This document shows positions 403-59,605 of a stretch of 64,000 nt of DNA, piece after piece; position 1 is the first letter of the stretch; every line of letters starts with the position of its first letter. The stretch comes from Sutcliffiella horikoshii DSM 8719. Its GTDB lineage: Bacteria > Bacillota > Bacilli > Bacillales > Bacillaceae_I. The stretch is taken from positions 1 to 64,000 of the forward strand of contig LQXN01000067.1 in assembly GCA_001648575.1 (NCBI GenBank), given 5' to 3'. The notes beneath the pieces are model-generated. The model did not search any database, was not told where the DNA came from, and worked only from the letters and a program-made list of their open reading frames with translations. The translations under genes were made by a program, and so were the position numbers.

Positions 403-530
403 GGGGAAGACCCCGCAGGGCGTAAGCCCGAGGAGGCTTCCGGACCGCCCGCGAAAAGCGAAGCGCCTGGAACGAAGATCAACAGTAGGATGCAAATTTA
501 AAAATATTTAGGGCTTTTTCAACAGTCTGA
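403..530 (+). repeat. Interspersed structured repeat, copy A, 5'-truncated
   Basis: This holds the right-hand part of a repeat found at least six more times in the window. It has a GTAAGCC..GGCTT hairpin, the segment GCGAAGCGCCTGGAACGAAG followed by ATCAAC, and the right outer end CAACAGTCTG. The left half present in other copies is missing. The IS4-like fragment lies to the left, so the insertion or its decay may have removed that half. Confidence 0.75.
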
Positions 531-559
531 GATAAGTCCCCTGACTTATCTTTTTTTTT
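531..559 (+). terminator. Rho-independent terminator abutting repeat copy A
   Basis: GATAAGT and ACTTATC form a 7-bp stem followed by nine T residues. It begins where the right end of repeat copy A stops, as seen for the other copies. Confidence 0.75.
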
Positions 560-9707: not shown

Positions 9708-9927
9708 CTTATGAAGTGTAGGGCTTTGTGTAGACAAAGTTCAAATATGATCAAAATCCCTAGTTGATTGCAGTGGAAGGCGCGCGGACTCCCGCGGGAG
9801 GAAGGGACATGTAAGAACCCGCAGGCGTAAGCCGAGGAGGCTTACGGACCGCCCTTCGGATAAGCGAAGCGCCTGTAACGAAAATTAACTGTTCCTACAG
9901 CTACCTTATGAAGCATGGGGCTTTTTT
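9708..9927 (+). repeat. Interspersed repeat copy B between two copies of a terminator-like sequence
   Basis: The structured core runs from GTTGATTGCAGTGGAAGGCG (about 9763) to GCGCCTGTAACG and AATTAAC (about 9888), with the CGTAAGCC/GGCTTACG hairpin near 9826-9846. A left outer end, TGTGTAGACAAAG, starts at 9727. The flanks are direct repeats: CTTATGAAGTGTAGGGCTTT (9708-9727) and CTTATGAAGCATGGGGCTTT (9905-9924). The right one continues into a T run and serves as the terminator after asbF. This fills the asbF-to-oxidoreductase gap. Confidence 0.78.
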
Positions 9928-20837: not shown

Positions 20838-20881
20838 AATTCCACCTGATTTTTTGAAAAACATTAAAAGGGGAGATCTTT

Positions 20882-21862
20882 ATGATAAACGGTTTAAAAG
20901 GGATTCACCACGTAACGGCGATAACAAGCAGTGCGGAGAAAAACTATGATTTCTTCACCTATGTGTTAGGGATGAGACTTGTTAAGAAGACAGTTAATCA
21001 AGACGACATCCAAACATACCACTTGTTCTTTGCCGATGATTCAGGCAGTCCAGGCACAGATATGACTTTCTTTGATTTTCCCGGCATACCTAAAGGTAAC
21101 CATGGAACGAATGAAATATTCAGAACCGGCTTCAGAGTCCCATCAGACAATGCATTAGTATATTGGAAGGATCGTTTCGACCGATTAAATGTTAAGCACG
21201 ATGGTATAAGAGAGGAGTTTGGTACAAAAACCCTTTCTTTCGTTGATTTTGATGATCAGCAGTACCAATTGGTTTCAGATGAAAACAACCATGGGGTGGA
21301 GCCGGGCACACCTTGGCAAAAGGGGCCGATACCTTTAGAACATGCAATCACTGGATTAGGGCCACTCCATATTCGGGTCGCAAATTTTGATTTCTTTAAG
21401 GAAGTACTAGAGAAGGTATTACTTTTCAAAGAAATTGCACAAGAAGGTGACACTCATTTATTTGAGGTAGGAGAAGGAGGCAACGGGGCACGACTGGTTG
21501 TAGAACACAATGCTACACTGCCTCAAGCCCAGCAAGGATACGGGACTGTACACCATGCCGCGTTCCGAGTGGAAGACCGCTCCGTTATCGATGAGTGGGA
21601 TGCGAGGTTAAAAGGTTTCGGCTTTAATACCTCAGGTCATGTTGACCGCTATTTCTTTGAGTCACTATATGCAAGGGTTGCACCGCAAATTTTATTTGAG
21701 TTCGCAACGGACGGTCCGGGATTCATGGGAGACGAACCTTACGAAACGTTAGGGGAGAAACTTTCTTTACCACCGTTCCTTGAACCGAAGCGTGAACAAA
21801 TCGAAAAGCTTGTTAGACCGATTGATACTGTTAGAAGTACAAAAGATTTTACAAAAGAATAA
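20882..21862 (+). CDS. Ring-cleaving (catechol-type) dioxygenase, VOC family, MhqO/MhqA-like
   Basis: A 326-residue protein with two VOC (glyoxalase) modules, 4-150 and 150-300. Candidate metal ligands are His10/His11 in GIHHVTAITS, the second-module His in GLGPLHIRVANF / GTVHHAAFRV, and the late glutamate in ILFEFATDGPGF. In B. subtilis, MhqO, MhqE and relatives protect from hydroquinones and are repressed by MhqR, which fits the operator here. ATG 20882 follows AGGGGAGA. The gene stands alone and ends at a strong terminator. Substrate is inferred from regulation, not shown. Confidence 0.88.
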   Translation: MINGLKGIHHVTAITSSAEKNYDFFTYVLGMRLVKKTVNQDDIQTYHLFFADDSGSPGTDMTFFDFPGIPKGNHGTNEIFRTGFRVPSDNALVYWKDRFDRLNVKHDGIREEFGTKTLSFVDFDDQQYQLVSDENNHGVEPGTPWQKGPIPLEHAITGLGPLHIRVANFDFFKEVLEKVLLFKEIAQEGDTHLFEVGEGGNGARLVVEHNATLPQAQQGYGTVHHAAFRVEDRSVIDEWDARLKGFGFNTSGHVDRYFFESLYARVAPQILFEFATDGPGFMGDEPYETLGEKLSLPPFLEPKREQIEKLVRPIDTVRSTKDFTKE

Positions 21863-21873
21863 TCATGATGTAA

Positions 21874-22157
21874 AACCAGTCTCTTTTTATATATAGAGAC
21901 TGGTTTCAGTGTGTAGACAAAATTATTTTATCTTTAAGATATGCAAAACCTGTGTTGATCGTAGTGGAAGGCGCGCAGACTTCTGCGGGAGGAAGGGAAA
22001 GGGAAGACCCCGCAGGCATGCCGAGGAGGCTTACGGACCGCCCGCTGGAAAGCGAAGCTCCTGCAACGAAGAGCAACTGTTCCCACAGATAACTTAACTC
22101 ATTTATAGTTTGTCAACAGTCTGACCAGTCTCTTTTTATATATAGAGACTGGTTTTT
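21874..22157 (+). repeat. Interspersed repeat copy E flanked by two near-identical terminators
   Basis: A terminator hairpin (stem ACCAGTCTC/GAGACTGGT) lies at 21875-21906 and again, nearly identical over 32 bases, at 22124-22157. Between them is a 217-bp element, from CAGTGTGTAGACAAAA at 21907 to GTTTGTCAACAGTCTG at 22108-22123. The two outer ends are imperfect inverted repeats. Inside are the core with GTGGAAGGCGCGCAGACTTC, the GCCGAGGAGGCTTACGG region, and CGAAGCTCCTGCAACG. Transcripts of the dioxygenase would stop at the first copy. Confidence 0.88.
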
Positions 22158-22242
22158 GTTTGGAGAAAATATACCCATTCCAAAGTACATTCCCAGATGA
22201 AATGCATAAGATAATTCAATGACATTTGAAGGAGTTGAAGGA

Positions 22243-23022
22243 ATGTATTCATATCCAAATATGTATGCTTATCCATACTTATATAATGCTAACTATGCAA
22301 GAAACAGCTACTGGACATATCCGAACTATTACTACAATAATCACTATCATAATGGTTTCAGGGCGATTGAACTTAAGGACTATGGGCCAAACCCATTCGC
22401 TGAAAATATTACCGAACTCACTTTGCAAAACAATAACTTTAGAACCGCTTTATGGACTGGACCACATTTTCAAATTACGTTAATGAGTTTAAATCCTGGT
22501 GAAGATATAGGATTGGAGATGCACCCGGATGTGGACCAGTTCCTGCGTTTAGAGCAAGGGCAGGGAAGAGTTCAGATGGGTGAGAGCAAGGATGATTTAA
22601 GTTTTGAAAAAATGGTATCGGATGACTTTGCGATAGTGATTCCAGCTGGCACCTGGCACAACTTGACCAATACTGGAAATACTCCGCTGAAACTATACTC
22701 TATCTATGCCCCGCCAAACCATCCATTTGGTACGGTACATGTTACGAAAGAAGATGCGGAGGCAGCAGAAGAGCATGGAGACGAACCAACGGTCATTGAT
22801 GGAAAAACCCCAGATGAATGGATTCAATATACCGAATTTTTAGTAAAGGAAGGCTTAGAGGATGTGAAAAGAGGTATAAATTCTCTTCATATTCTACAAG
22901 AATTCATTCTAATGGGAGTACTTGTCGGAAAAGGTTACTCTCCTCAGAAAGCCTATGAAACTGTAGAAGCGTGGGAGAGAACGGGGGAATCCAAGCTCCT
23001 GCAGCAAAGCAAAAATATGTAG
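22243..23022 (+). CDS. Cupin-domain protein with Tyr-rich N-terminus
   Basis: A protein of about 259 residues. The first 45 residues are rich in Tyr, Asn and Pro (MYSYPNMYAYPYLYN and similar), unlike the soluble cupin that follows. The cupin core has LNPGEDIGLEMHPDVDQFLRLEQGQG and VIPAGTWHNLTNTG, with metal-type His and Glu residues. A helical region (about 190-259) ends the protein. ATG 22243 is preferred over 22219 because GAAGGAG lies 9 bases before it. The Tyr-rich end resembles spore-coat or envelope proteins; function unknown. A partner with a Tyr-rich C-terminus lies at 62927-63532. Confidence 0.82.
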   Translation: MYSYPNMYAYPYLYNANYARNSYWTYPNYYYNNHYHNGFRAIELKDYGPNPFAENITELTLQNNNFRTALWTGPHFQITLMSLNPGEDIGLEMHPDVDQFLRLEQGQGRVQMGESKDDLSFEKMVSDDFAIVIPAGTWHNLTNTGNTPLKLYSIYAPPNHPFGTVHVTKEDAEAAEEHGDEPTVIDGKTPDEWIQYTEFLVKEGLEDVKRGINSLHILQEFILMGVLVGKGYSPQKAYETVEAWERTGESKLLQQSKNM

Positions 23023-23030
23023 GAAGAAAT

Positions 23031-23058
23031 AGCACCGATTGATACGGTGCTGTTTTTC
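23031..23058 (+). terminator. Terminator after Tyr-rich cupin
   Basis: AGCACCG pairs with CGGTGCT, followed by TGTTTTTCTT. Confidence 0.82.
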
Positions 23059-23105
23059 TTGTTGCCTTGAAGAGGTTTCCTACAAGACATATTTTTCAAG
23101 ATTCA

Positions 23106-23246
23106 TCAGTCAATCAGATCATCCAAGCGGCGGGCTACCCTTTTAATGACTCTCTTCGCCATTCTTGCACGTCTTTCCAAATATTCCTCGCCCTCTTCGA
23201 TAAGGTTTTCCCCTAACCTAGTGACATAACGGTAATAACGCAACAT
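23106..23246 (-). CDS. Small basic protein of 46 residues, unknown
   Basis: A reading frame of 47 codons with ATG 23246 behind a strong AAAGGGGGTGACA ribosome site, ending TGA at 23106. The protein begins MLRYYRYVTRLGENLIEEGE and continues as a highly charged helix rich in Arg and Glu (about 10 Arg). No family is recognised. The good ribosome site and clear end support a real gene; nothing downstream is co-transcribed. Confidence 0.55.
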   Translation of the reverse strand: MLRYYRYVTRLGENLIEEGEEYLERRARMAKRVIKRVARRLDDLID

Positions 23247-23458
23247 ATTGTCACCCCCTTTGTTTCTATCATATGAAAGTTGATAGAATCGGACAGGGTA
23301 AATACCTGTTTCCTATCATATTTTTAATAAACTATTAAAATTTGCAAGTGAAAGGAATAATAAACGTGCGAGATGCTAGAGCTGACAAGCTTGAAGCTGC
23401 TTAGTATTTTATGATAGAGTTTTCGGGAGGCTCATACAAAGAAAAAGGGGGGCAAGAT

Positions 23459-23617
23459 ATGATTGAGAATGGATATTTTGTAGGATGGGGGACATTGGCT
23501 CTGATTAATGCAGGATTAGCGCAGGGGAAGAATCGAAGTGGTCTTAACTGGTTTATCCTTTCCATTTTCTTCGGCCCATTGGCAACATTCTTATTGTTAT
23601 TTGTAGAAAAGAGATAA
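23459..23617 (+). CDS. Small membrane protein of 52 residues
   Basis: ATG 23459 follows GGGGGGCAAG. The protein begins MIENGYFVGWGTLALINAGL, has a charged AQGKNRSGLN loop, and ends in a second hydrophobic segment (WFILSIFFGPLATFLLLFVEK). That is the two-helix layout of short Bacillus membrane proteins with a K/N-R-S/G loop. An upstream in-frame ATG at 23411 has poor context. A bidirectional terminator follows. Function unknown. Confidence 0.6.
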   Translation: MIENGYFVGWGTLALINAGLAQGKNRSGLNWFILSIFFGPLATFLLLFVEKR

Positions 23618-23648
23618 AAAGTAGGGTTCGTTTTAATTTCCAATATGT

Positions 23649-23690
23649 AAAGCAGAGTAAATGTTGCCTGACAATCACTCTGCTTTCTTG
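23649..23690. terminator. Bidirectional terminator between small ORF and DUF3307 gene
   Basis: AAAGCAGAGT pairs with ACTCTGCTTT across an 18-base loop. T/A tails on both sides suit both converging transcripts. Confidence 0.75.
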
Positions 23691-23693
23691 GTT

Positions 23694-24560
23694 TCATCCA
23701 AACAAAACTAGTTTCAAAATGACCCCATATATGATAGCCAATAGGAAGGAAGTCAAGGTCCCCAGAAGAAAATATTCAGCCCAATCTCGATCATCCATTT
23801 GTTTAAATCGGGTTAGGGACTTAGCGGCAACGATGAAACCAACCGCATGAAAAGACCCCATAAGGATCAATGCCACCACAAGCAACCTTTCCAAATAACC
23901 GATTACCTTTCCGCGTGAAAGATCCTGGTGTTTCATCACCATATAGGTATATTCTTCTGACATGTTTTTTTCACTATTGGGGCTGACTGCCAAATCGCGT
24001 AATGTATATTTCCCTTCAAAAAGGGAGATATGCTTGGTAAGTGATCCGAGCATGATACGGATAAAGTGACCGGTTACTGTAGTACATAAGATGAACATAA
24101 TCAGTAAGAAGAGCAGGGTGTTTACAAGCCCAAGCTCAATCCTTACACCTTCTGCTAATTTCATAGTTATGAGCAGCTGATGGAAAACCTCATACAAATC
24201 TATCCGAAATGCAAAATAGCAAACTGTCAAAATAGTAAGTATATGTAAGACTTGGTCACCTACAAATAGCCCAAGATTCCATGTATTTCTCTTCGTCCAC
24301 CTTATACTTTTTTGTTGCAGGGCTACTTTTAAGAAATCAATCAATCCATGAGATAACACCAGGAGAGCAGAAGGAATCACCACTTCATTAAAAAAATACT
24401 CCCCTTGTATAAAAAATAGGATCGAAAGTGAGATAACTATCATTGCAGCGTGGTGAAAAAGATGGAGTATTAGATATTTTCTTTTCTCCTTTACCATTTT
24501 CTCTGTTTGAAAATAAAAATCAGCTATTAAATGAGCTAAAATAAGTAATAAAACAATCAT
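23694..24560 (-). CDS. DUF3307 family membrane protein
   Basis: A 288-residue protein with about six hydrophobic segments. The N-terminal half has the DUF3307 features LLILAHLIADFYFQTEKMVKEK (conserved His, Asp, Gln) and LSHGLIDFLKVALQ. It lies 23 bp downstream of the SatD-like gene on the same strand, and this pair is often seen together in Firmicutes. It is probably an inner membrane partner of SatD; the biochemical role is unknown. Confidence 0.85.
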   Translation of the reverse strand: MIVLLLILAHLIADFYFQTEKMVKEKRKYLILHLFHHAAMIVISLSILFFIQGEYFFNEVVIPSALLVLSHGLIDFLKVALQQKSIRWTKRNTWNLGLFVGDQVLHILTILTVCYFAFRIDLYEVFHQLLITMKLAEGVRIELGLVNTLLFLLIMFILCTTVTGHFIRIMLGSLTKHISLFEGKYTLRDLAVSPNSEKNMSEEYTYMVMKHQDLSRGKVIGYLERLLVVALILMGSFHAVGFIVAAKSLTRFKQMDDRDWAEYFLLGTLTSFLLAIIYGVILKLVLFG

Positions 24561-24583
24561 TCAAACCCTCCTTACAATCCAGT

Positions 24584-25330
24584 TCAGAAAGAGATAATAT
24601 TGTTGATATTCTGATGAAGCTGGTTTTTAATTGTTTTCGTTAATTCCTTCGTGATATTGTGCGGATAGTTCCCTATCGCCGCTGCTTCAAGATAATCCAG
24701 TGTTTCTTGAAGGGTTTTCAGGGTTTTCAATATTATCTCACAATTCCCTTTCTTGTAGTGGCTGGAAATAGTAGATGGCGACTTATTTACTAGCTTTGCA
24801 ATTGCTTTTTGCTCATCCAGTATTGAAAAAAGCATTGTTATAAGATGCTGTAGCTCGGTTTGTTCACTCATTAATTTATCCTGATAGGTCAATAATAAAT
24901 TCCCCATATCCAAAGAAGGTTTAGATACTAACTCGTTCTCAGGTAATATCACCATGGATGTACGCTGAACAGATTGTTTAATGTTTTCATTCGCAGTGCG
25001 TGCAAGCCCCATTAATGGATGATTCCATTTATCAAGATTTATTTGCTTAATGTCCTCATCAACCATACCAAAAGTGATTCCGAAATAGGGCGGCTGCTCT
25101 CTGTATTTCCAAAACTGGCTGATATAAAACGCCAATGTATAAGCGGTAGAAAAATGATCGAAGATGCCAACCAACTCATCACCAAGACGATGCTTTACTT
25201 TGGCATTGGGCAACCCTCTTGTCCACATTTTGGCCATTCCTTCTATTTCCTCCAGATATTCAGTTATTTCATTCCAGTTCTTTGATGAGTTTGTCACATC
25301 CATTATAAATATGGAAACAGGCTTCTTCAT
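24584..25330 (-). CDS. satD: SatD-family protein with HTH
   Basis: A 248-residue protein. The N-terminal part (about 1-140: SIFIMDVTNSSKNWNEITEY, KHRLGDELVGIFDHF) has a nucleotide-cyclase or palm-like look with DxT and GDE elements. The region about 170-200 (DEQKAIAKLVNKSPSTISSHYKKG) is a helix-turn-helix. This is the SatD layout; the satCDE genes were described in Streptococcus mutans acid tolerance and secretion. ATG 25330 follows AAAGGATTGTG. The operon partner is DUF3307. Autoregulation through the upstream inverted repeat is an inference. Confidence 0.8.
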   Translation of the reverse strand: MKKPVSIFIMDVTNSSKNWNEITEYLEEIEGMAKMWTRGLPNAKVKHRLGDELVGIFDHFSTAYTLAFYISQFWKYREQPPYFGITFGMVDEDIKQINLDKWNHPLMGLARTANENIKQSVQRTSMVILPENELVSKPSLDMGNLLLTYQDKLMSEQTELQHLITMLFSILDEQKAIAKLVNKSPSTISSHYKKGNCEIILKTLKTLQETLDYLEAAAIGNYPHNITKELTKTIKNQLHQNINNIISF

Positions 25331-25417
25331 CTGCTCACAATCCTTTCTTACGTACTTTTCATATAATAATCTTCCTACATTTTATTACAATTCGATTATT
25401 TAATCAACATACGTAAA

Positions 25418-25437
25418 ATTCGATAGATTAATCGAAT
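25418..25437. promoter_or_regulatory. Inverted repeat between satD and yeeE-like gene
   Basis: ATTCGAT-6-ATCGAAT, with a further AATTCGATTATTTAATC about 30 bp to the left. It lies 88 bp before satD and about 140 bp before the YeeE gene, so it is a candidate operator, possibly for the HTH of SatD. Confidence 0.5.
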
Positions 25438-25576
25438 TATAGATAAGTAGATGAAATAGTCAAATTTTTAAAGAAAAATAGAATACAAGCTGTATGGTTT
25501 ACAACGATATCAAAAAAAGTTATCATAGCAACTAACGTAAATTCCGATAAAAACAATAGGAGAAGGTGAGATTATA

Positions 25577-26839
25577 ATGGCTTTCACAACTTCAACAACG
25601 GAACATGCCGTTGGACCGGAAAATCCAAAAACAACGATTGTAACAAAGTTAAATCCAATACAGAAACCCTTTTTAACACTTGGATCGGCAATCGGGATCC
25701 TGTTGCTGGTCGCAATAGTCCTCACAACAGATTGGATACAAGGATTTCTTTATATAATTGGTTTGGCGCTTGGTATTACCTTGCTTCATGCAAGATTTGG
25801 CTTCACTTCAGTATTCAGACGATTGATGTCCGTAGGCAATGTTCAAGGATTGCAAGCACATATGCTGATGCTTGCCGTTGCTACAACCTTGTTTGCCGTC
25901 ATTTTGAGTACAGGCTTCAGTTTTACAGGTAACACACCCGCAGGATATGTATCTCCAGTGGGAATAAGCGTACTTGTGGGAGCATTTATTTTCGGGATTG
26001 GCATGCAGCTCGGTAGTGGCTGTGCATCAGGAACGCTATATTCGGTCGGCGGGGGATCCTCATCCATGATTCTGACTTTGATATCTTTTATAATAGGTTC
26101 GGTTATAGGTGCGTATCATTTCACATTCTGGATGGAAGATACCCCTGCACTACCGCCAATTTCCATTGCAGAGTCAACAGGTCTTGGCTTCTTTGGGGGC
26201 TGGGTGATTCAAATGCTTTTATTTGCAGGGATCTATTGGATTACAGTGCAGATAGCAAAGAAAAAGAAACCGCCCCATATGAAGCCTTTAGCGACAACAA
26301 CAGGATGGAAAAAGATTGTTCGAGGTTCATGGCCTTTATTTGCTGCTGCCATTATACTTGCATTGCTAAATGCCCTTACACTTGCAGTCAGGGGTAACCC
26401 TTGGGGCATCACGTCCGCCTTCGCTCTTTGGGGGGGGAAGGCTCTTATGGCAGTAGGGGTAGATGTATCAAGTTGGGGATATTTTTCTGGTGAAAATGGA
26501 GCAGCATTGACACAGACGGTTCTGGCGGATTCGACAAGTGTCATGAACTTTGGAATCATCATAGGCGCCTTTCTTGCCGCTGCTGCTCAAGGTAACTTCA
26601 AGCCTAAGAAAATAAAGCCCGGCATAGCAGGTGCATCCATTATAGGAGGCCTATTGATGGGGTACGGGGCACGCCTTGCTTTCGGTTGCAACATCGGAGC
26701 ATATTTCGGCGGCATTGCATCCTTCAGCTTACATGGTTGGGTATGGATGGTCATGGCCATGCTGGGTACACTACTAGCTTTATTTATCAGACCAATATTC
26801 GGATTGAAAAACCCTAAGCCTACAGATTCAGTTTGCTGA
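25577..26839 (+). CDS. YeeE/YedE-family sulfur-compound transporter
   Basis: A 420-residue integral membrane protein with 9-11 helices. Two cysteine motifs typical of the YeeE/YedE (DUF395) family are present: LGSGCASGTLYSVGGG (about 147-162) and RLAFGCNIGAYFGG (about 370-383). YeeE transports thiosulfate in other organisms; YedE-like members move other sulfur or selenium species. ATG 25577 follows AGGAGAAGGTGA. No TusA-like partner gene follows. The substrate is inferred from family only. Confidence 0.88.
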   Translation: MAFTTSTTEHAVGPENPKTTIVTKLNPIQKPFLTLGSAIGILLLVAIVLTTDWIQGFLYIIGLALGITLLHARFGFTSVFRRLMSVGNVQGLQAHMLMLAVATTLFAVILSTGFSFTGNTPAGYVSPVGISVLVGAFIFGIGMQLGSGCASGTLYSVGGGSSSMILTLISFIIGSVIGAYHFTFWMEDTPALPPISIAESTGLGFFGGWVIQMLLFAGIYWITVQIAKKKKPPHMKPLATTTGWKKIVRGSWPLFAAAIILALLNALTLAVRGNPWGITSAFALWGGKALMAVGVDVSSWGYFSGENGAALTQTVLADSTSVMNFGIIIGAFLAAAAQGNFKPKKIKPGIAGASIIGGLLMGYGARLAFGCNIGAYFGGIASFSLHGWVWMVMAMLGTLLALFIRPIFGLKNPKPTDSVC

Positions 26840-26844
26840 CTATT

Positions 26845-26876
26845 TAAAGCGACTCGATAGCCGAGTCGCTTTTTTA
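26845..26876 (+). terminator. Terminator after YeeE-type gene
   Basis: AAAGCGACTC pairs with GAGTCGCTTT, followed by a T run. Confidence 0.88.
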
Positions 26877-27095
26877 TATGACTGACGGGAAATAATTTGA
26901 CTGAAGTTATACTGCATATTATTTATTATTATTTCAGGAAAATACAATCGAAAATTATGAAATAATGAAACTATTGCACAAAAACAACTGCGTTATCTGA
27001 AGATAGAATATTTCCCAAAGAGCAAAAAGTGTCAAAATAAATAGAATATTGAAGGAGAATATTATAGAATAAGAAGAACTCAGGGGGAGATATGG

Positions 27096-28736
27096 ATGAG
27101 ACTAAAAATAATGCCGGTACGTCTGCAAACTAAGATAATTATCCTTATTGTCTCGTTATTATTTAGCATTATATTCGTCATCTGCGGTGTATTCTTTTAC
27201 CTGGAAATGAAAGAGCTTAAAGCCAATACAGGCAACCGGGCACTACAGATGGCAAAAGTCATAGCAGGGATGCCTGAAGTGATGGAATCCATGGAGTCGG
27301 ACAATCCAAGTATGAGGCTCCAGCCTTTAGCAGTGAACATTCAAAAGGAGATTAAGGCCCAATTTGTCGTGATTGGGAATATTGAGGGGATAAGGTATAC
27401 CCATCCGGACGCTGACAAACTAGGACAGCACATGGTAGGTGGCGATAATACCAGGGCACTGAGGGAGGGAGAAGCGTACATCTCTGAAGCAACAGGATCT
27501 CTTGGATTATCTATCAGAGGGAAAGCACCTATTTTTGCTCAAGATGGAAGGATTCTCGGAGTAGTGTCAGTCGGTTTTCTAATGGAAAATTTAAATAGCC
27601 GGATGGAAGAAAAGCTGGTGGAAATATCGTTGATTGCTCTATTGGCAATAAATATGGGAATAGCAGGAGGCTATGTACTGGCCAGGAACATCCGCCAAGA
27701 CATACTGGGCCTCGAACCACATGAAATCGCTTCCTTGTACAGAGAAAGAACAGCCATACTACAATCCGTCAAGGAAGGAATCATAGCAATTGATGCTGAC
27801 GGGTATATAACCATGGCAAATCCTTCAGCCCTTGAAATACTAGAGCTAGGAGAAAGTGAGTTGCTACATAAAAAAATAACCGACATTGTACCCGGTACAG
27901 ACCTGCTCGAGGTTGCTAAGTCAGGTCATGCTCAAGTGAACAAGGAAGTATTTATATTTGATAAAGATATATTCGTAAATAGGATTCCCATTTTGGAAAG
28001 AGGAAAAGTGGTGGGAGTGGTATCGAGCTTCCGTGACAAAACGGAAATGAAGAAGTTGCTTAACACCTTGACAGAGGTTAAAAAATATTCGGAGGAATTG
28101 CGAGCGCAGACTCATGAATTCACAAACAAATTGTATGTTATATCGGGGATGTTGGAACTAGGGAAATTCAACGAAGCTCTAGATTGGATACAGAAGGAAT
28201 ACAAAATTAACCAAGAACGGAATGACATTTTATTTGACAGGATAAAAGATGAAAGATTACAGGCCATCCTATTGGGCAAACTTGCGGTGGCATCAGAAAA
28301 GAAAGTGCTGCTTCAACTCGATGAGGGTAGTTCGGTTAATATGATTCCAACGAATATAGAGTTTTCAAGTTTAGTAGCGATTATTGGTAATCTGCTAGAA
28401 AATGCTCTGGAGGCTGTTGAACAGAAGGAGGGGGGAGTCGTATCCTTTTTTGCTGTTGATTATGGGAACGACTTAATATTGGAGGTCAGCGATAACGGGC
28501 CAGGTTTTCAGGGCGAGGAGATTGATCGTATATTCATGAAGGGATATAGCACAAAACAAGTTGATCAGCAAAGGGGATACGGTCTTTCTATCGTGAAAAA
28601 AGAGGTAAATCAACTGGGTGGAACAGTGGAAGTACAAAGAACCTCGGACAACACTACTGTGTTTACCGTTTACCTTCCCAAAAATCAAAGCTATGGGGGT
28701 GGAAGATATGATAAATGTAGCGATAGCAGAGGATGA
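27096..28736 (+). CDS. DcuS/CitA-type sensor histidine kinase
   Basis: A 546-residue kinase. It has membrane helix 1 (about 14-37), an extracytoplasmic PAS-like sensor (about 38-175), helix 2 (about 176-198), a cytosolic PAS (about 210-310), then TQAHEFTNKL-like phosphoacceptor (RAQTHEFTNKLYVISG) and HATPase_c (NLLENALEAVE, VSDNGPGF, STKQVDQQRGYGLSIV). This family senses C4- or citrate-type carboxylates. ATG 27096 is weakly supported by GGGGAGATATGG. It overlaps the response regulator by 29 bp. The tctCBA transporter follows 1.5 kb downstream, so a carboxylate signal is likely. Confidence 0.9.
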   Translation: MRLKIMPVRLQTKIIILIVSLLFSIIFVICGVFFYLEMKELKANTGNRALQMAKVIAGMPEVMESMESDNPSMRLQPLAVNIQKEIKAQFVVIGNIEGIRYTHPDADKLGQHMVGGDNTRALREGEAYISEATGSLGLSIRGKAPIFAQDGRILGVVSVGFLMENLNSRMEEKLVEISLIALLAINMGIAGGYVLARNIRQDILGLEPHEIASLYRERTAILQSVKEGIIAIDADGYITMANPSALEILELGESELLHKKITDIVPGTDLLEVAKSGHAQVNKEVFIFDKDIFVNRIPILERGKVVGVVSSFRDKTEMKKLLNTLTEVKKYSEELRAQTHEFTNKLYVISGMLELGKFNEALDWIQKEYKINQERNDILFDRIKDERLQAILLGKLAVASEKKVLLQLDEGSSVNMIPTNIEFSSLVAIIGNLLENALEAVEQKEGGVVSFFAVDYGNDLILEVSDNGPGFQGEEIDRIFMKGYSTKQVDQQRGYGLSIVKKEVNQLGGTVEVQRTSDNTTVFTVYLPKNQSYGGGRYDKCSDSRG

Positions 28737-29436
28737 TTTCCGAGTGGCACACATCCACGAACAATTCTTGGATAAATTAGAAGGGATAAGAATGGTCGAT
28801 AAAGCCCTAAATGCCACTCAAGCGATGGAGCTGCTTGCAAAAGGGAAGACCGATCTCATCCTCTTGGACAATTATATGCCTGATGAATGCGGAGCTTCAC
28901 TGCTTCCAGCGATCCGTGAAAGATTTGCTGAAGTGGACATCATCATGATTACAGCTGCTGCAGACAAGGAGGTAGTAGAAGCTGCCCTGCATTATGGAGT
29001 GATGGATTACCTAATTAAACCGGTGACCTTTGAAAGGTTCCAACATGCAATAAGAAACTACTTAGAGAAAAGGGCTTTTATCAAACAAAATGAAGCGTAT
29101 AACCAAACGATAATAGATCAACTCTTTCATCCTACCGAATTAAAAGCGAGCAAGAAAGAAGAATGTGACTCTCTGCCAAAAGGGATTGATCAATTAACTT
29201 TAGGTAAAGTGGAAGAACTTCTTCAAAACAATTCAGGGAATGGGTGGACAGCCGAACAAATGGGGGAAATGATGGGAGCATCGAGGACAACTGCAAGGAG
29301 GTATCTTGAATACTTGATTTCAAGGGGAAAAGCAAAAGCTGAGTTGGAATACGGTATGGTGGGGAGACCAGAACGAAAATACTATAAGATAGGAAATGAA
29401 GTCAATGGAAGAGTTAAAGATTTTCAAAAAAGATAG
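28708..29436 (+). CDS. CitB/DcuR-type response regulator
   Basis: A 242-residue response regulator. The receiver has IAEDDFRVA acidic pocket residues, the phosphoacceptor Asp in DLILLDNYMPDE, MITAAAD and YLIKPV lysine. The C-terminal helix-turn-helix is GWTAEQMGEMMGASRTTARRYLEYL. ATG 28708 is chosen over an upstream frame start at 28618, because GGGGGTGG precedes it and the receiver motif begins there. It is paired with the kinase upstream. The likely target is tctCBA. Confidence 0.9.
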   Translation: MINVAIAEDDFRVAHIHEQFLDKLEGIRMVDKALNATQAMELLAKGKTDLILLDNYMPDECGASLLPAIRERFAEVDIIMITAAADKEVVEAALHYGVMDYLIKPVTFERFQHAIRNYLEKRAFIKQNEAYNQTIIDQLFHPTELKASKKEECDSLPKGIDQLTLGKVEELLQNNSGNGWTAEQMGEMMGASRTTARRYLEYLISRGKAKAELEYGMVGRPERKYYKIGNEVNGRVKDFQKR

Positions 29437-30022
29437 AACCTATATAGGTACAGCAACCAGAGATGAGATACATATTAAGGGACTCTGGCATGAAACCTTT
29501 CACTGCTGGATAATGGCAGAGATCGAGGGTAAGGAATACCTCTATTTTCAATTGAGGAGCAAGAGGAAAAAGGATTACCCAGGCCTATTGGATATCACAG
29601 CAGCCGGGCACTTATTATCAAATGAAAATGTGGAAGATGGAATCAGGGAATTAAAGGAGGAAATAGGGATTAAAGTGACCATGGATGAATTAACTTATCT
29701 TGGTGTCATTCCTTATGAAAAAGAATTAGAGGGTTTTATCGATAGGGAGCATGCACATGTGTATTTGTTGCAACGAGAAATCCCCTTTGAATATTTTACT
29801 CTGCAAGCAGAAGAGGTAAGCGGGATCTTCCTTGTTCCATTCGAGGAATTTTATCAGCTTTGGTTCGGAAATGACAAGCATGTGGCTATGGTCGGAATCA
29901 AAGAGAAAGAAAACGGCGAAAGAGTAAGGATTACTATGAAAGCAGACAAAGATATGTTCGTTCCGCACAACGATTCATTTTACAAGGATACTTTGGATGC
30001 TATAAAGTCAGGCAGGAACTAA
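29405..30022 (+). CDS. Nudix hydrolase (isopentenyl-diphosphate-isomerase/YfcD-like group)
   Basis: A protein of about 205 residues. The Nudix-box stretch is AAGHLLSNENVEDGIRELKE followed by EIGI, with a spacing one residue shorter than the classic box, as in the YfcD-like subgroup. ATG 29405 follows AGGAA; an ATG at 29396 is less likely. It overlaps the response-regulator end and would be translated from the same mRNA. Substrate unknown; a housekeeping role for nucleoside diphosphates is only an analogy. Confidence 0.82.
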   Translation: MEELKIFKKDRTYIGTATRDEIHIKGLWHETFHCWIMAEIEGKEYLYFQLRSKRKKDYPGLLDITAAGHLLSNENVEDGIRELKEEIGIKVTMDELTYLGVIPYEKELEGFIDREHAHVYLLQREIPFEYFTLQAEEVSGIFLVPFEEFYQLWFGNDKHVAMVGIKEKENGERVRITMKADKDMFVPHNDSFYKDTLDAIKSGRN

Positions 30023-30032
30023 AAATGCAATA

Positions 30033-30081
30033 AAAAGAGGTTGTCCTGGGAGAATTTTTCCTAATGGGCAGCCTTTTTATT
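30033..30081 (+). terminator. Terminator after Nudix gene
   Basis: GAGGTTGTCC pairs with GGGCAGCCTTT (imperfect), followed by a TTTATT tail. It separates the regulatory operon from tctCBA. Confidence 0.65.
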
Positions 30082-30155
30082 ATGTATTCAGAATCGATAG
30101 TCCTCTGTGAACAAAATGAACAAAATAATCAATATATCTTTTATAAAGTTTATAT

Positions 30156-30169
30156 TGTAAACGGTTACA
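30156..30169. promoter_or_regulatory. Catabolite-responsive element (cre) upstream of tctC
   Basis: TGTAAACGGTTACA matches the cre consensus (TGWNANCGNTNWCA) completely, 98 bp before the tctC start. CcpA repression during growth on glucose is expected. Confidence 0.8.
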
Positions 30170-30267
30170 TTTATGAGAATATTCTTTACGATCACTAACA
30201 AGGGATGGCTCATATACCTTACACCCGGATTCTTTCAACAGATAAAAACGGCAAAGGGGAGTTCTAA

Positions 30268-31275
30268 ATGAAAATGAAGAAAAAGGCAGGAATAATTGGG
30301 TTAACAATGTTGTTATCCATAACGGCAGCATGCTCCAGCTCAACTGGAGGAGCGAACTCTGATGGAACATGGTCTCCTCAAAAACCAGTTGAAATGGTGG
30401 CACCAGCAGGGGCAGGTGGTGGATGGGATACTACCGCAAGGATGGTGGCCCAGACATTTGAACAAGAGAAAATGATTGATAAAAGGATGCCAGTTGTAAA
30501 TAAACCTGGTGGTGGCGGCGCTGTGGCATGGTCTTACATCGCAAAGAAAAATGGTGATCCTCATCATTTATTTGTTTCTTCTCCTCCTTTATTATTAGTT
30601 CCGCTAAATGGGCAATCGGACAATACATTTGAGGACTTCACACCAATAGCGAATGTTATTGCGGACTATGGAGCTTTTGCGGTTAGAGAAGATGCAAAGT
30701 GGGATAATTTGAATGAGTTATTTGACGATATGAAGAAAGATCCATCCTCTGTAACTGTAATAGGGGTATCCTCCCCCGGAAGCATGGATCATATCCAGTT
30801 CGTCAAAATAGCAAAAGCAGCAGGAGTGGATATCAGTAAAATAAAGTATGTTTCTGAACAAGAGGGCGGGACATTGACCGCACTACTGAACGGGAGTGTA
30901 GATGTCTATTCTGCAGGTACGGCAGAAACGGTGGAGCAGGTGAAAGCCGGGAAGATCAAAGTCTTGGGTATAACTGCGGAAGAACGCCTTGAAGGGGAAG
31001 TCCTCTCAGACTTCCCGACTGCCAAAGAACAGGGAATCGATGAAACTTTTGTGAACTGGAGAGGTTTCTTCGGCCCGGCCGACATGGATCAGGCGGCAAT
31101 CGATTATTATGTAGAAAAGTTTTCGGAGTTGAATGAATCTGATGCTTGGGATGAAATCCGAAAAAAATACGGTTGGAATGAGCTGTATATGACAGGAGAG
31201 GAATACCAAGAATTCCTCAAAAAGGAAAATGAAGAAATGCAATTATTGCTAGAAGAGCTCGGCTTAGGTAACTAA
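30268..31275 (+). CDS. tctC: Tripartite tricarboxylate transporter substrate-binding lipoprotein TctC
   Basis: A 335-residue solute-binding lipoprotein with lipobox TAACSS (Cys23 region). The mature part starts with the TTT signature KPVEMVAPAGAGGGWDTTARM, followed by VNKPGGGGAVAWSYI, and contains ALLNGSVDVYSAGT near 210. TctC-type proteins bind di- or tricarboxylates outside the membrane and pass them to TctAB. ATG 30268 follows AAAGGGGAG. Followed by tctB and tctA in one operon. Confidence 0.92.
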   Translation: MKMKKKAGIIGLTMLLSITAACSSSTGGANSDGTWSPQKPVEMVAPAGAGGGWDTTARMVAQTFEQEKMIDKRMPVVNKPGGGGAVAWSYIAKKNGDPHHLFVSSPPLLLVPLNGQSDNTFEDFTPIANVIADYGAFAVREDAKWDNLNELFDDMKKDPSSVTVIGVSSPGSMDHIQFVKIAKAAGVDISKIKYVSEQEGGTLTALLNGSVDVYSAGTAETVEQVKAGKIKVLGITAEERLEGEVLSDFPTAKEQGIDETFVNWRGFFGPADMDQAAIDYYVEKFSELNESDAWDEIRKKYGWNELYMTGEEYQEFLKKENEEMQLLLEELGLGN

Positions 31276-31341
31276 TTGTTAAGGTGTCCCGCTTCCTCAC
31301 CTCAAGAGGGAGCGGAACCTTATAACGTGGAGGGATGTTGC

Positions 31342-31803
31342 ATGGTTCTTAAACCGATTAATCGTAAAATTGGTTTGGTCCTAGCCGGTTTTGCAGGATT
31401 ATACTTATTTTTGAGCTACCAGATACCAAGTTATTCCTATGCATTGGTTGATGCGGATGTGGTGCCAAAGGGACTAGGTTTCTTGCTTTTATTATTGTCC
31501 ATTCTACTTTTTTCACAAAAAAAAGTAGAAACAGAACAAGAAAAACAAAAAAGGACCATACCTAAAAAGGAAATATATATTTTGTTGGGAGTCGCTGCAT
31601 TCATTTTGATATATATCTTTTTGCTTGAAATAGTAGGCTTTGTCATAATGACTTCCCTGTTTGTTTTTACATGTTCTTCGTTTCTTGGTTACAAAAACTA
31701 TAAAACAAGTGCGCTTGTTGCAATCATATTTTCAACGCTCATTTATTTTCTGTTCAATTACTTGCTCCTTATTCATTTACCACCAGGAGTATTACCATTT
31801 TAG
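31342..31803 (+). CDS. tctB: Tripartite tricarboxylate transporter small membrane subunit TctB
   Basis: A 153-residue protein with four hydrophobic segments, the usual length and layout of TctB. ATG 31342 follows GGAGGGATG; a start at 31276 further upstream would overlap tctC without a ribosome site. tctA begins 12 bp downstream. Sequence conservation is low in this family, so the call rests on position and size. Confidence 0.88.
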   Translation: MVLKPINRKIGLVLAGFAGLYLFLSYQIPSYSYALVDADVVPKGLGFLLLLLSILLFSQKKVETEQEKQKRTIPKKEIYILLGVAAFILIYIFLLEIVGFVIMTSLFVFTCSSFLGYKNYKTSALVAIIFSTLIYFLFNYLLLIHLPPGVLPF

Positions 31804-31815
31804 GAGGTGAGTCAG

Positions 31816-33324
31816 ATGGGGTCTATGGAAGGTCTTTTTTCCGGCTTTCAGGTTGCCTTTAGTATTGAAGGAATTTTATTTGTATTTCTAGGTGTTTTTA
31901 TTGGTACATTTATCGGGATGATGCCGGGTCTTGGCCCAATCAGCGCCATTGCTATCATGATTCCTGTCACTTACAGCATGGACCCGGCACTGGCGCTGGT
32001 CATGATGGCGGGAGTATACTATGGGGCGGTCTTTGGAGGGTCTTCATCCTCGATACTTCTGAATGCTCCAGGCATCTCAGGCACAGTAGCGACAGCCTTT
32101 GATGGTTATCCAATGGCGCAGCAGGGAAAGGCAGGAAAAGCGTTGGCCATTGCAGCCATAGCTTCCTTCACGGGAGGTACGGTAAGTGTAATCCTGCTAA
32201 TGCTTTTCACCCCCTTACTAGCTTCCGTCGCTGTCGTATTCGGGCCAGTTGAGTACTTTGCTTTAATGCTGATGGGACTTACTGCCATATCGAGTCTGTC
32301 AGATGGATCCACAGTAAAAGCAATGATTTCAGCTGTTTTGGGCTTTATGGCTGTAACGATCGGTATAGATGCACAAACAGGAACTCAACGCTTTACTTTT
32401 GGTAACATCAACCTCCTTGAAGGTATCGATTTTCTTGTAATTGCTCTCGGATTATTCGCTTTAGCTGAAGTTTGCATTTTAATTTTCAACCGTAAAGACA
32501 GTTCCGGAGGTATGAGTGGAAACATCGGGAGTCTGAAACTTTCCAGACATGATGTAAATGAAATGAAAGGTCCTGTTACGCGGCAATCATTTCTCGGCTT
32601 TCTGCTGGGTGTTTTACCTGGGGCAGGTGCGACCATCGCTTCTTTCATTGCATATGTGACAGAGAAAAGAATAGCAAAAAATCCGGAAGAGTTCGGGAAA
32701 GGTTCCATTAAAGGTCTTGCCGCACCCGAGGCAGCTAACAATGCAGCAACTGGCGGGGCCTTTGTGCCCCTGTTAAGTTTAGGGATCCCAGGGTCGGGTA
32801 CAACAGCGGTCCTGCTAGGTGCCTTCCTTGTCCTCGGCGTACAGCCAGGTCCGCTCCTTGTACAGGATAATCCTGAAGTGTTCTGGGGAATCATCGCCAG
32901 TATGTATATTGGAAATATATTCCTTTTGGTCTTGAACCTGCCGCTTATCCCTTATATCGCTAAGATCCTTAAAGTACCAAGGCCACTGTTGATTTCCTTG
33001 GTTATCATGTTTAGTCTTATCGGTGTTTATGCAATCAGTTTTAATACATTTGATTTATATGTATTGCTGTTATTCGGGGTGGCAGGTTTCCTAATGAGGA
33101 TATTCTCCTTTCCTGCAGCTCCGTTCATTCTGGCATTTATCCTAGGAGGTATGATGGAGCAGGCAATGCGACAATCGTTGACTATTTCCAATGGGGACTG
33201 GATGGTCTTCATAAAGAGTCCGATTTCCGCTACTTTAATCGCTTTAGCATTACTATCGCTTATCATTCCACTAATCAAAAAGAAACCACAATTGGTTTCT
33301 GAAGATAAAAAATTGGATGTATAA
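31816..33324 (+). CDS. tctA: Tripartite tricarboxylate transporter large membrane subunit TctA
   Basis: A 502-residue membrane protein with about 12 helices. The TctA signature GTFIGMMPGLGPISAIAIMI (residues about 30-49) and the second repeat LGVLPGAGATIASFIAY are clear, as is YGAVFGGSSSSILLNAPG. It carries out sodium- or proton-coupled carboxylate uptake with TctB and TctC. ATG 31816 follows AGGAGGTGA. A terminator and repeat copy F follow. Confidence 0.94.
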   Translation: MGSMEGLFSGFQVAFSIEGILFVFLGVFIGTFIGMMPGLGPISAIAIMIPVTYSMDPALALVMMAGVYYGAVFGGSSSSILLNAPGISGTVATAFDGYPMAQQGKAGKALAIAAIASFTGGTVSVILLMLFTPLLASVAVVFGPVEYFALMLMGLTAISSLSDGSTVKAMISAVLGFMAVTIGIDAQTGTQRFTFGNINLLEGIDFLVIALGLFALAEVCILIFNRKDSSGGMSGNIGSLKLSRHDVNEMKGPVTRQSFLGFLLGVLPGAGATIASFIAYVTEKRIAKNPEEFGKGSIKGLAAPEAANNAATGGAFVPLLSLGIPGSGTTAVLLGAFLVLGVQPGPLLVQDNPEVFWGIIASMYIGNIFLLVLNLPLIPYIAKILKVPRPLLISLVIMFSLIGVYAISFNTFDLYVLLLFGVAGFLMRIFSFPAAPFILAFILGGMMEQAMRQSLTISNGDWMVFIKSPISATLIALALLSLIIPLIKKKPQLVSEDKKLDV

Positions 33325-33340
33325 AACTAAAAATAATAAA

Positions 33341-33604
33341 AGCCCTACCTTTCAATCGGTAGGGCTGAGTGTGTGGACAAAGTTAAAATATGATGAAAGT
33401 CTTTAGTTGATCGCAGTGGAAGGCGCGCAGACTCCCTCGGGAGGAAGGGACATGTAAGACCCCGCAGGCGAAGCCGAGGAGGCTTACGGACCGCCCGCAG
33501 GAAAGCGAAGCGCCTGGAACGAAGATCAACCGTTCCAACAGATAACTTAACTAATTTTTAGTTTATCAAAAAATATGAGCCCTACCTTTCAGTCGGTAGG
33601 ACTC
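33341..33604 (+). repeat. Interspersed repeat copy F flanked by two terminators
   Basis: The left hairpin AGCCCTACC..GGTAGGGCT (33341-33366) is repeated as GAGCCCTACC..GGTAGGACTC (33577-33604), with loops TTTCAATC and TTTCAGTC. The element between them runs from GAGTGTGTGGACAAAG to GTTTATCAAAA. Its core has GATCGCAGTGGAAGGCGCGC at the left and GCGCCTGGAACGAAGATCAA at the right, plus a GCCGAGGAGGC hairpin. TctA transcription would end at the first hairpin; the second also serves the converging cydABS transcript. Confidence 0.88.
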
Positions 33605-33615
33605 ATGTTGTTCTA

Positions 33616-33714
33616 TTAATATTTTTCCTTGCCTTTTGCTCCCCATAAGAACAAAAGAACAATACCAGTAACAACAATCAATGGTGCTGCATACATAATC
33701 AAGAAATTTTCCAA
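33616..33714 (-). CDS. cydS: Cytochrome bd oxidase small subunit CydS
   Basis: A 32-residue single-helix protein starting with TTG 33714 behind AAGGAGGT, 13 bp after the cydB stop. It begins ENFLIMYAAPLIVVTGIVL and ends in a short Lys-rich tail. The MYAP-type entry and the length match Geobacillus CydS, which covers the heme region of CydA in the membrane. It is too short for most ORF callers. Confidence 0.85.
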   Translation of the reverse strand: MENFLIMYAAPLIVVTGIVLLFLWGAKGKEKY

Positions 33715-33727: not shown

Positions 33728-34741
33728 TTATTTTTTTCCCTGTACGTATTTGTTATCAAATAAGAACAAACGCATCAAGAGGTATAATGAAGGAATCAGC
33801 AGGCAAAGCCCTGCGATGAAGGCGGAAATCAACGCAATGGCCATCGCTTCGTTTGTAAATCCGTCATAAATGGTGAGGTACGGATATAAAAGATACGGCA
33901 TATGAGATGCACCGTAGCCGAAAAAAGCAGTTGCAAACTGCAGCATAACCAAAATAAATGCGACACCGAGATGTTTCTTTTTCCACATAAGATAAACCGC
34001 TCCTAGGAAAAAGAGAAAGGAAAGACTGAACATCCATGAAAGCTCCAGCATTTTATCAAAGTGGACCGGGTTATGATCACTTAATGCAAAGAACACAAGC
34101 ACACTTGCTAAAATCGTTGGAAGGCTCCAGTTTAAAGCATATTTCCTTAATACCTCAAAAGCCTTTTCATCCTGAGCTGCTCTGGCATAATATGCAAGGA
34201 AATAAGCAGAAATGTAAAGTACACTTACCAAAGCTAAAATGACGACAGCCCAAGAATAGAAACTGGTGAACAATGCTGCATAATCAAGCCACACTGTATC
34301 TTCGTACTTGTAGATGAATCCGCCCTCTGAAATTGTCAGAACTACAGAAAGGGAAGCAGGAATCAATAAGCCTGTTGCTCCATATAATGCCTGATAAAAG
34401 GTGTTCCCTTTTTCCCCGTAATGATGGAAGGCGTAATATGAACCACGAATCGCCAATAGTACGATAGCAATACTGCCTGGAACCAATAAAGTTGTTCCAT
34501 AATAATAGGCGGTAGAAGGGAAGAAGCCCACAATTCCTATAAAAAAGAATACGAGAAAAACATTTGTTACCTCCCAGACAGGGGAGAGGTAACGGACAAT
34601 TACTTTATTGATTAAATGATTCTTCTTTGTGATTGTAGAATAGTAGCTGAAAAAGCCGGCTCCAAAATCGATGGAGGCTACAATCAAGTATCCGTACAGA
34701 AATGTCCACAGTACCGTGATGCCAATAACTTCATAACTCAT
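33728..34741 (-). CDS. cydB: Cytochrome bd ubiquinol oxidase subunit II CydB
   Basis: A 337-residue protein with about nine membrane helices, as in Bacillaceae CydB. The conserved N-terminal FLYGYLIVASIDFGAGFFSY (acidic residue in helix 1) and VTNVFLVFFFIGIVGFFPS are visible. It is the structural partner of CydA in the quinol oxidase that reduces oxygen to water. ATG 34741 lies 12 bp after the cydA stop with AAGGAGG upstream. Operon order is cydA-cydB-cydS. Confidence 0.93.
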   Translation of the reverse strand: MSYEVIGITVLWTFLYGYLIVASIDFGAGFFSYYSTITKKNHLINKVIVRYLSPVWEVTNVFLVFFFIGIVGFFPSTAYYYGTTLLVPGSIAIVLLAIRGSYYAFHHYGEKGNTFYQALYGATGLLIPASLSVVLTISEGGFIYKYEDTVWLDYAALFTSFYSWAVVILALVSVLYISAYFLAYYARAAQDEKAFEVLRKYALNWSLPTILASVLVFFALSDHNPVHFDKMLELSWMFSLSFLFFLGAVYLMWKKKHLGVAFILVMLQFATAFFGYGASHMPYLLYPYLTIYDGFTNEAMAIALISAFIAGLCLLIPSLYLLMRLFLFDNKYVQGKK

Positions 34742-51659: not shown

Positions 51660-51838
51660 TTTTGGTGGAGCAGTTGATCTCCGTTGCAGGAGCTTCGCTT
51701 TCCAGCGGGCAGTCCGTAAGCCTCCTCGGTTTACGCCTGCGGGGTCTTACCAGTCCTTTTCTCCCGCAGGAGTCTTTGCTCCTTCCACTGCCGATCAACT
51801 AGAGAATTATATTATTTAAAGTCTTGTCAAAATACTGA
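51660..51838 (-). repeat. Interspersed repeat copy G (reverse orientation) beside a terminator
   Basis: Minus-strand version of the core: TTGATCTCCGTTGCAGGAGC at the left and CCTTCCACTGCCGATCAACT at the right, with CCGTAAGCCTCCTCGGTTTACG inside. The outer end GTCTTGTCAAAATACTG is a degraded form of the ends of copies E and H. It lies right after tcyP. GGAGCAG at 51667-51673 may be the last trace of a left terminator copy, since GAGCAG also begins the right terminator. Confidence 0.72.
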
Positions 51839-59193: not shown

Positions 59194-59605
59194 AGGCACA
59201 CCGCATAACATGTGGTGTGCCTCAGTGTGTAGACAAAGTCTTTAATCTTCAGGAACATGTAAGACCCATGTTGATCGTAGTGGAAGGCGCGCAGACTCCA
59301 GCGGGAGGAAGGGACAAGTAAGACCCCGCAGGCAAAGCCGAGGAGGCTTACGGACCGCCAGCAGGAAAGCGAAGCGCCTGGAACGAAGATCAACATGAAA
59401 ATGCAATTCAAAAGATGATTAGAGTTTGTCAACAGTCTGGGGCACACCTCTTAGCATGTGGTGTGTCTTAATTCGTAGCCAAAGATTAAAAATTTTGCAA
59501 TTCTCTAGTTGATCGCAGAGGAATGAACGTAGCTCATGCAGCGGAGATTAACTGTTCAAAAAGATAATCTAACTAGTGCATAACACTTATCCTGGGGTGT
59601 GCCTA
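59194..59605 (+). repeat. Two tandem repeat elements (copies H and I) among three terminator copies
   Basis: First terminator AGGCACACC..GGTGTGCCT at 59194-59222. Element H is 59223-59439 with outer ends CAGTGTGTAGACAAAG and GTTTGTCAACAGTCTG. Second terminator GGGCACACC..GTGGTGTGTC is at about 59440-59467. Element I (about 59471-59586) is a strongly shortened or decayed copy (TTCTCTAGTTGATCGCAGAG near its left end, GGAGATTAACTG). Half of a third terminator, CTGGGGTGTGCCT, is at about 59592-59604. The gap between clpP and the TetR gene is filled by this. Confidence 0.82.

Follow-up and report, generated by a model that had tools for sequence, protein, structure and literature searches.

The short repeat element that lies behind a tctA-like gene of Sutcliffiella horikoshii DSM 8719 is very probably a MITE moved by a DDE transposase of the IS1182 family, which targets stem-loop palindromes and duplicates the whole hairpin; this is the reading to which the observations jointly point. 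The duplication of a whole hairpin appears to be new, the targeting of hairpins by the IS1182 family is known, and the element is not a new system. Sequence comparison shows the ends of the element, the partner transposase, the duplication around MITE and IS alike, the boundaries at the feet of the stem, the empty sites and the repeated hits on one target.

The focal site and the other copies in the window

The window, as the term is used here, is the whole stretch of 64,000 nucleotides analysed (contig LQXN01000067.1, positions 1 to 64,000). The focal site is made up of the following features.

31807..33324, + strand: tctA-like gene (ORF call; relatives by tblastn; named after the first-pass annotation)
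33341..33366, no strand: tctA terminator stem-loop, left copy, which forms the left half of the target-site duplication, AGCCCTACCTTTCAATCGGTAGGGCT
33367..33577, + strand: focal MITE copy, 211 bp, older, right end decayed, left end GAGTGTGTGGACAAAG
33404..33534, + strand: inner repeat core GTTGATC...GATCAAC, present in congeners outside these ends too
33578..33603, no strand: right copy of the tctA terminator stem-loop, AGCCCTACCTTTCAGTCGGTAGGACT

In the window sequence 16 nt separate the tctA stop codon from the left hairpin, and the terminator of the tctA-like gene was the target of the focal insertion. AGCCCTACCTTTCAATCGGTAGGGCT and AGCCCTACCTTTCAGTCGGTAGGACT differ at 2 positions in 26 bp. 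The boundaries of the focal element were set by comparison with the other copies; its left end reads GAGTGTGTGGACAAAG where the family sequence is CAGTGTGTAGACAAAG, and the copy is old. The first-pass annotation had described the tctA hairpin on each side of a recurring element of about 210 bp, and this is what was found, with 26-bp hairpin copies, a 211-bp element and recurrence across the genome. The interval it had given, 33341-33604, does hold the hairpin-element-hairpin arrangement, except that its last base lies one past the right hairpin.

The same arrangement is present at a second site with a hairpin that differs from that of tctA, at a third site, and in part at three decayed relatives.

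21875..21906, no strand: second site, left hairpin, 32 bp (sequence repeat)
21907..22123, + strand: second-site MITE of 217 bp with two good ends, which contig C42 lacks
22124..22155, no strand: second site, right hairpin, identical to the left copy (sequence repeat)
59194..59222, no strand: third site, left hairpin (sequence repeat)
59223..59439, + strand: third-site MITE, 217 bp (end matches)
59440..59469, no strand: third site, right hairpin, diverged (sequence repeat)
9725..9900, + strand: decayed relative without a right end, its left end and core still discernible (read by eye, approximate limits)
51673..51830, - strand: decayed relative in which one hairpin and one end can still be discerned (read by eye, approximate limits)
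407..540, + strand: decayed relative without a left end, its core and right end adjoining a hairpin (read by eye, approximate limits)

The flanks of the relative at 9725..9900, (A)CTTATGAAG.GTAGGGCTT / CCTTATGAAGCATGGGGCTT, resemble an old duplication when compared by eye.

The fold of the focal stretch had a z of -2.7 against shuffled sequences, with 2 of 200 shuffles equally good. We did not read this as a sign of an RNA function, the orientation of the element relative to termination being unbiased. Rfam searched over the window at E 0.1 gave no match at the element, and its sole match was a 6S RNA gene at 49418-49606 (87.5 bits). Two further observations were made in the window. A membrane-like ORF of 32 codons with a TTG start was read by eye at 33616-33714 on the - strand, next to the gene at 33728-34741; similar sequence is present in congeners, and the ORF resembles CydS-like small subunits of cytochrome bd. 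At 51890-51973 there are four imperfect direct repeats, with units of 21 bp that contain GTCACAATAA or a near-variant.

Copy number and duplication of the hairpin

The genome holds about 150-190 MITE copies. In its 4.68 Mb the end CAGTGTGTAGACAAA was matched 150 times with at most 1 mismatch, against 1 match for the reversed control pattern, and 193 times with at most 2 mismatches, against 5; the figure of 193 is an upper estimate, as some of the 2-mismatch matches may be the other end type. That other end, CAGACTGTTGACAAA, gave 145 matches with at most 1 mismatch and none for its control. Element matches in the genome numbered at least 42, with 40 of 294 first-look candidates scored. The loci analysed contain 114 distinct end matches out of the 193 (98 exact and 16 with 1-2 mismatches), and the MITE is mostly 207-221 bp long. 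In 15 congeners CAGTGTGTAGACAAA was found 59 times in G016, 53 times in G010 and 36 times in G011, with 0-5 matches in each of the others; the congener loci analysed cover 30 of 86 exact end matches.

Two-ended copies were defined by at most 3 mismatches at each end and a length of 100-500 bp, which gave 99 distinct copies in the own genome. Copies with a single recognisable end stand outside this set, the focal one among them because its right end is too decayed. A direct repeat anchored at both element ends was present in 92 of the 99 copies, and the repeat is the local stem-loop. None of 493 flank pairs taken across loci passed the same test (same-locus pairs excluded). The congeners G010, G011 and G016 gave the same picture, with an anchored repeat in 28 of 29 paired copies and in 0 of 140 control pairs. 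The repeats were both identical and flush in 45 of 120 MITE copies. Among the seven own-genome copies that failed, five have a visible repeat that is shifted or decayed, and L040 and L072 (4038-4257) showed no visible repeat in the anchored test. L072 has a different hairpin at either side, and its flanks look as recombination between two copies would leave them.

The suggestion of the first-pass annotation that the element either targets terminators or copies them is thus borne out on both counts, and the flank comparison it proposed turned up duplicated hairpins at most copies (92 of 99).

The partner transposase and a possible origin of the MITE

The MITE has no transposase gene, has ends in common with an IS and is present in high copy number. 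The own genome contains a decayed IS at locus L061 (locus positions 463-1960), with a PF13751 match at E 2e-25. It lies between two GAAGCAGTA...TACTGCTTTC hairpin copies that differ by an indel, and it fails the strict repeat score. In L332, a second IS fragment, an end of the L061 type adjoins a hairpin. The 67 contigs of the own assembly yielded no intact IS with such ends. Congener G009 carries an intact one at L219, which encodes a transposase of 448 aa and sits within a perfect 30-bp hairpin repeat. Its ORF scored 477.4 bits with the IS1182-family model NF033551 (cut-off 270) and contains the Pfam domains DUF772, DDE_Tnp_1_6 and DDE_Tnp_1. The terminal inverted repeats of L061 and L219 are CAGCTTGTAGACAAA / CAGACCGTAGACAAA at both ends. 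The IS of L219 is also present on the Sutcliffiella horikoshii plasmid pBH-BAT-167, with the same flanks and 99.8% protein identity, and congener G013 has four IS copies with perfect hairpin repeats of 24, 20, 22 and 27 bp. At L215 524-1884 of G013 the transposase is split in two ORFs (193 + 254 aa) within a perfect hairpin repeat, either by frameshifted expression or by recent decay.

MITE and IS ends, compared side by side, have 2 mismatches in 15 positions at either end. The shared ends and the shared unusual duplication argue for mobilisation of the MITE in trans by the IS1182-family transposase. Another candidate helper of the own genome, L062, is an intact IS1182-like gene of 451 aa that scored 262.8 bits, below the cut-off of 270, and was rejected as its ends differ. 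In contig C67 (about 29,400) this gene has an end of different sequence, CAGGGCTTCTGGACAAC, beside a small hairpin, and the partial copies L063-L065 were also seen.

The core at 33404-33534 has many matches in congeners without MITE ends, and in none of 19 congener core loci were MITE ends found at the usual place. In the genus the GTTGATC...GATCAAC core forms a repeat in its own right, often close to terminators. On two Peribacillus plasmids (L359 792-899; L360 about 2150-2260) an IS1182 element contains a similar core between its end and its transposase gene. To judge by these arrangements, the MITE may plausibly derive from a core-bearing IS that lost its transposase gene.

Spread across the genus and the Bacilli

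Relatives of the L219 transposase were found in 226 of 398 Bacilli genomes searched. We examined 56 IS loci, 30 of them one per best-scoring genome and 26 from four genomes picked for high copy number; both ends and both flanks could be evaluated in 47. A mismatch-free repeat of 18-33 bp surrounds the IS in 37 of the 47, being flush in 35 and within 2 nt in two. In 34 of these 37 repeats the two arms, matched end to end, are paired at no fewer than 70% of positions, and in L289, L292 and L298 the palindrome is offset by 1-2 nt. The cross-locus control passed 2 of 2162 pairs, both from L348/L351. These two loci (G405 C1, about 2,200,500-2,203,500) are adjacent IS1182 copies with swapped flanking hairpins, X-IS-Y-IS-X, as if a two-IS unit around a hairpin had moved jointly.

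Ten of the 47 copies have no matched pair. Eight have a different hairpin at each end (L348 and L351 included), which we read as probable recombination between copies; L294 has a hairpin at one side only and L296 has none. When the PF13751 loci of the genus were scanned for exact repeats, a hairpin repeat was found in 5 of 18 (L215, L219, L220, L223 and L226) and in none of the other 13 (L213, L214, L216, L217, L218, L221, L222, L224, L225, L227, L229, L230 and L232), some of which appear to be cut by contig ends and others to belong to other subgroups or to be too decayed. In the single ISEfa7 copy examined (L314) the left end lacked a hairpin, and the pattern used identified no right end. 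Hairpin duplication is thus a trait of a clade and not of every transposase with the domain.

Empty sites and repeated insertion

A second contig of the same assembly, C42, shows 100% identity with the window along 11,298 and 1,534 bp in the part compared (12,800 of its 21,263 bases, C42 1-12800 vs window 20373-33421). The sole difference lies at 21.9 kb, where C42 lacks the 217-bp element and one 32-bp hairpin and keeps one hairpin. C42 may represent an allele that was never occupied, the element may have been excised precisely when the two repeats recombined, or the assembly may have run through the 32-bp repeat. That C42 duplicates the window at all suggests a mixed culture, a living polymorphism or assembly redundancy.

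At the tctA site the congeners G006, G007, G009 and G016 have a single hairpin. A decayed element lies between two hairpins in G010, a related element with one hairpin seen is present in G005, and in G013 the two genes are 947 bp apart; the other eight congeners had no tctA match beside the site in the loci analysed. At the 21.9-kb site one related hairpin follows the same gene in G005, G006, G007, G008, G009, G010, G012, G014 and G015, and one hairpin of other sequence is present in G011 (the comparison covers all congeners but G003, G004, G013 and G017). The empty sites that the first-pass annotation had proposed to inspect in relatives therefore carry one hairpin and not two. In G016 an element of opposite orientation lies at the 21.9-kb site, flanked on either side by the orthologous hairpin; this terminator was therefore hit in two species by separate insertions.

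Arrays of the form hairpin-element-hairpin-element-hairpin occur at three loci. Neighbours within an array are 82% identical at L010, 79% at L052 and 95% at L085. Every array member of L010 and L052 has a relative elsewhere at 97-99.5%, and the relatives of the two members of L085 stand at 99.5% and 95.7%. As the members of L010 and L052 are closer to copies elsewhere than to their neighbours, at least two of the arrays are repeat insertions and not tandem duplications. Judged from these sequences, the target hairpin is not consumed by insertion and one terminator can be hit again.

Geometry of the duplication and its proposed mechanism

The repeat starts flush (0 nt) with the 5' foot of the stem in 95 of 120 copies. 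Its left copy ends exactly at the 3' foot in 87 of 120, and at most 1 nt away in 103 of 120. Repeat length follows the span of the stem-loop (r = 0.83, n = 118, two outliers dropped whose stem was called more than 12 nt from the element), with a difference of 0 in 65 copies; the repeats of the own genome measure between 17 and 39 bp. The target is thus a stem-loop, the repeat boundaries standing at the feet of the stem, a tested feature shared with the IS1272 type. The view of the first-pass annotation that this is not a usual target-site duplication agrees with a length that follows the hairpin.

We propose the following course of events. The target would be a palindrome able to form a stem-loop, which for nearly all insertions means an intrinsic terminator hairpin. 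Both 3' ends of the element would be joined to the 5' feet of the stem-loop on opposite strands, with a stagger between the joins equal to the whole palindrome, and repair of the two hairpin-long gaps would leave a complete hairpin at each side. With such a stagger the length of the duplication would not be fixed but would equal that of the hairpin. The substrate is probably an extruded cruciform or a single-stranded hairpin and not duplex DNA; the order of the chemical steps of joining is one that we infer. Of the two copies, the left would retain the A-tract that precedes the hairpin and the right the T-tract that follows it; a bidirectional terminator should therefore work both ways, and the upstream transcript would gain a 3' extension of roughly 235 nt.

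A symmetric target in duplex DNA would also be expected to give symmetric joins and no orientation bias. The palindromes could then be read as duplex by their sequence or shape, by a flexible transpososome that makes wide staggered joins with no extruded hairpin. Against this, within a single genome the stagger takes values between 17 and 39 bp and tracks the stem-loop span, and we know of no duplex transpososome with such a range. We consider this explanation unlikely.

The position of the insertions brings up an alternative in which the transposase reads the terminator through transcription (a paused RNA polymerase, the nascent hairpin or the U-tract) and not the palindrome in DNA. From 92 sites, 90 were rebuilt after 2 too close to the end of a locus were removed, and the ORFs used were called mechanically with a minimum of 90 codons and are not annotated genes. 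Eighty of the 90 sites were free of ORF overlap (31 between convergent, 45 between co-directional and 4 between divergent gene pairs), and 76 of these 80 adjoin the 3' end of a gene; the median distance from stop codon to hairpin was 13 nt over 107 gene ends. The remaining 10 sites overlap an ORF, 7 of them only in its last 10-15 bases, and 3 of the 90 insertions span one, although 36 of the 49 perfect hairpins of at least 7 bp in the window lie inside ORFs; strong hairpins outside repeats are few in the window for a comparison of palindromes with terminators (49 of at least 7 bp in all). The sequence is A-rich before and T-rich after the feet of the stem. All this would fit a reading through transcription, but the same intergenic bias is expected from selection against insertions in genes. 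Moreover, sites with a tract at one side only split 37:37 relative to the orientation of the element, which shows no T-tract bias, and by a 5-of-8 rule 30 of the 120 sites have both tracts and 16 have neither. The boundaries follow the palindrome at both sides. We regard transcriptional targeting as rather improbable.

Chimeric flanks, as at L072 and L348/L351, would fit an alternative in which transposition does not make the second hairpin and recombination or gene conversion adds it later. This deserves hardly any credence, given that repeats are identical and flush in so many MITE copies (45/120) and mismatch-free around most IS copies (37/47, 35 flush), and that repeat boundaries coincide with the element ends. 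The idea that the hairpins are parts of the element, a terminator at each end and both carried along, would account for a hairpin at either side of nearly every listed copy, but is next to impossible once it is seen that hairpins agree within a site and not between sites (0/493 cross-site pairs), that orthologous empty sites already have one related hairpin, and that C42 keeps exactly one.

We return to the joint reading of a hairpin-targeting IS1182-family transposase. In its wider form it says that one clade of IS1182-family transposases, spread across Bacilli, targets the extruded hairpin, that the hairpin and not the geometry of the protein sets the length of the duplication, and that terminators stay intact and targets unspent. 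We lean towards this wider form with some reserve.

Relation to known elements

The length of a target duplication is normally near-constant for a given transposase. ISfinder reportedly lists repeats of 0-60 bp for the IS1182 family. Elements of the IS1634/IS1549 type also make long, variable target duplications, as the present element does; those duplications are not known to be tied to hairpin boundaries and the transposase is of another group. Other IS of the IS1182 family, such as ISEfa7 and ISPse1, have the transposase family in common with the element described here. As far as the accessible text goes, ISPse1 is apparently listed with a 4-bp duplication (PMC3281130), which would be short compared with the hairpin-long ones found here.

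The first-pass annotation went too far in supposing a possibly undescribed mobile system: the ends, the NF033551 transposase and the targeting of hairpins are those of the IS1182 family. Nothing seen in these comparisons pointed to the maintenance system that it had named as another possibility. In the portions of the papers available, IS1272/TnSha1 of this family is published as hairpin-targeting (PMC4923244, PMC5678879), for TnSha1/IS1272 with partial deletion of targets that include RNA-seq-supported terminators (PMC4923244). Some IS1182 members target palindromes according to Siguier et al. 2015, as cited in the available part of PMC4923244. For IS1272, the text at hand reports replacement of the stem-loop and draws its duplication as a possible 'pathway b' of a model (PMC5678879), and IS1182 transposition is described, in the portion available, as occurring with or without target duplication and by way of the sequence or the structure of the target (PMC12056078). 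From these same portions, IS1272 and TnSha1/TnSha2 of staphylococci resemble the present element in having an IS1182-family transposase, hairpin targets, several of them RNA-seq-supported terminators, little sequence preference and one target hit in both orientations. They are described there as deleting or replacing the stem-loop without duplication, whereas the present element duplicates all of it. Stem-loop deletion of the IS1272 type was not what we found, hairpins being duplicated in 92 of 99 MITE copies and 37 of 47 IS copies.

MITEAba12 (PMC6382973) and the pneumococcal BOX/RUP/SPRITE repeats (PMC3049150) are, in the extracts available, likewise short, of high copy number and mostly intergenic, and MITEAba12 has ends in common with a resident IS. 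The same extracts give MITEAba12 duplications of 9 bp (PMC6382973), unlike the hairpin-long ones here, and describe no terminator duplication for MITEAba12 (PMC6382973) or BOX/RUP/SPRITE (PMC3049150). No report of whole-terminator duplication by an IS1182 element or a MITE was found in the portion of the open literature available, and an earlier notice elsewhere is possible.

A duplication that runs from 17 to 39 bp in one genome and follows the fold of its target makes the attack of a DDE transposase on DNA secondary structure directly testable. It is also a warning that insertions alter the 3' UTRs of such genomes and the number of terminators counted in them, and it indicates a naturally neutral integration site. 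With a stop signal left at each side, insertion is probably nearly harmless, and the large repeat load at gene ends is explained as a low-cost lodging strategy. If the wider reading for a clade across Bacilli is true, it is terminators that stay unspent and unbroken that let the MITE load 150-190 sites in one genome.
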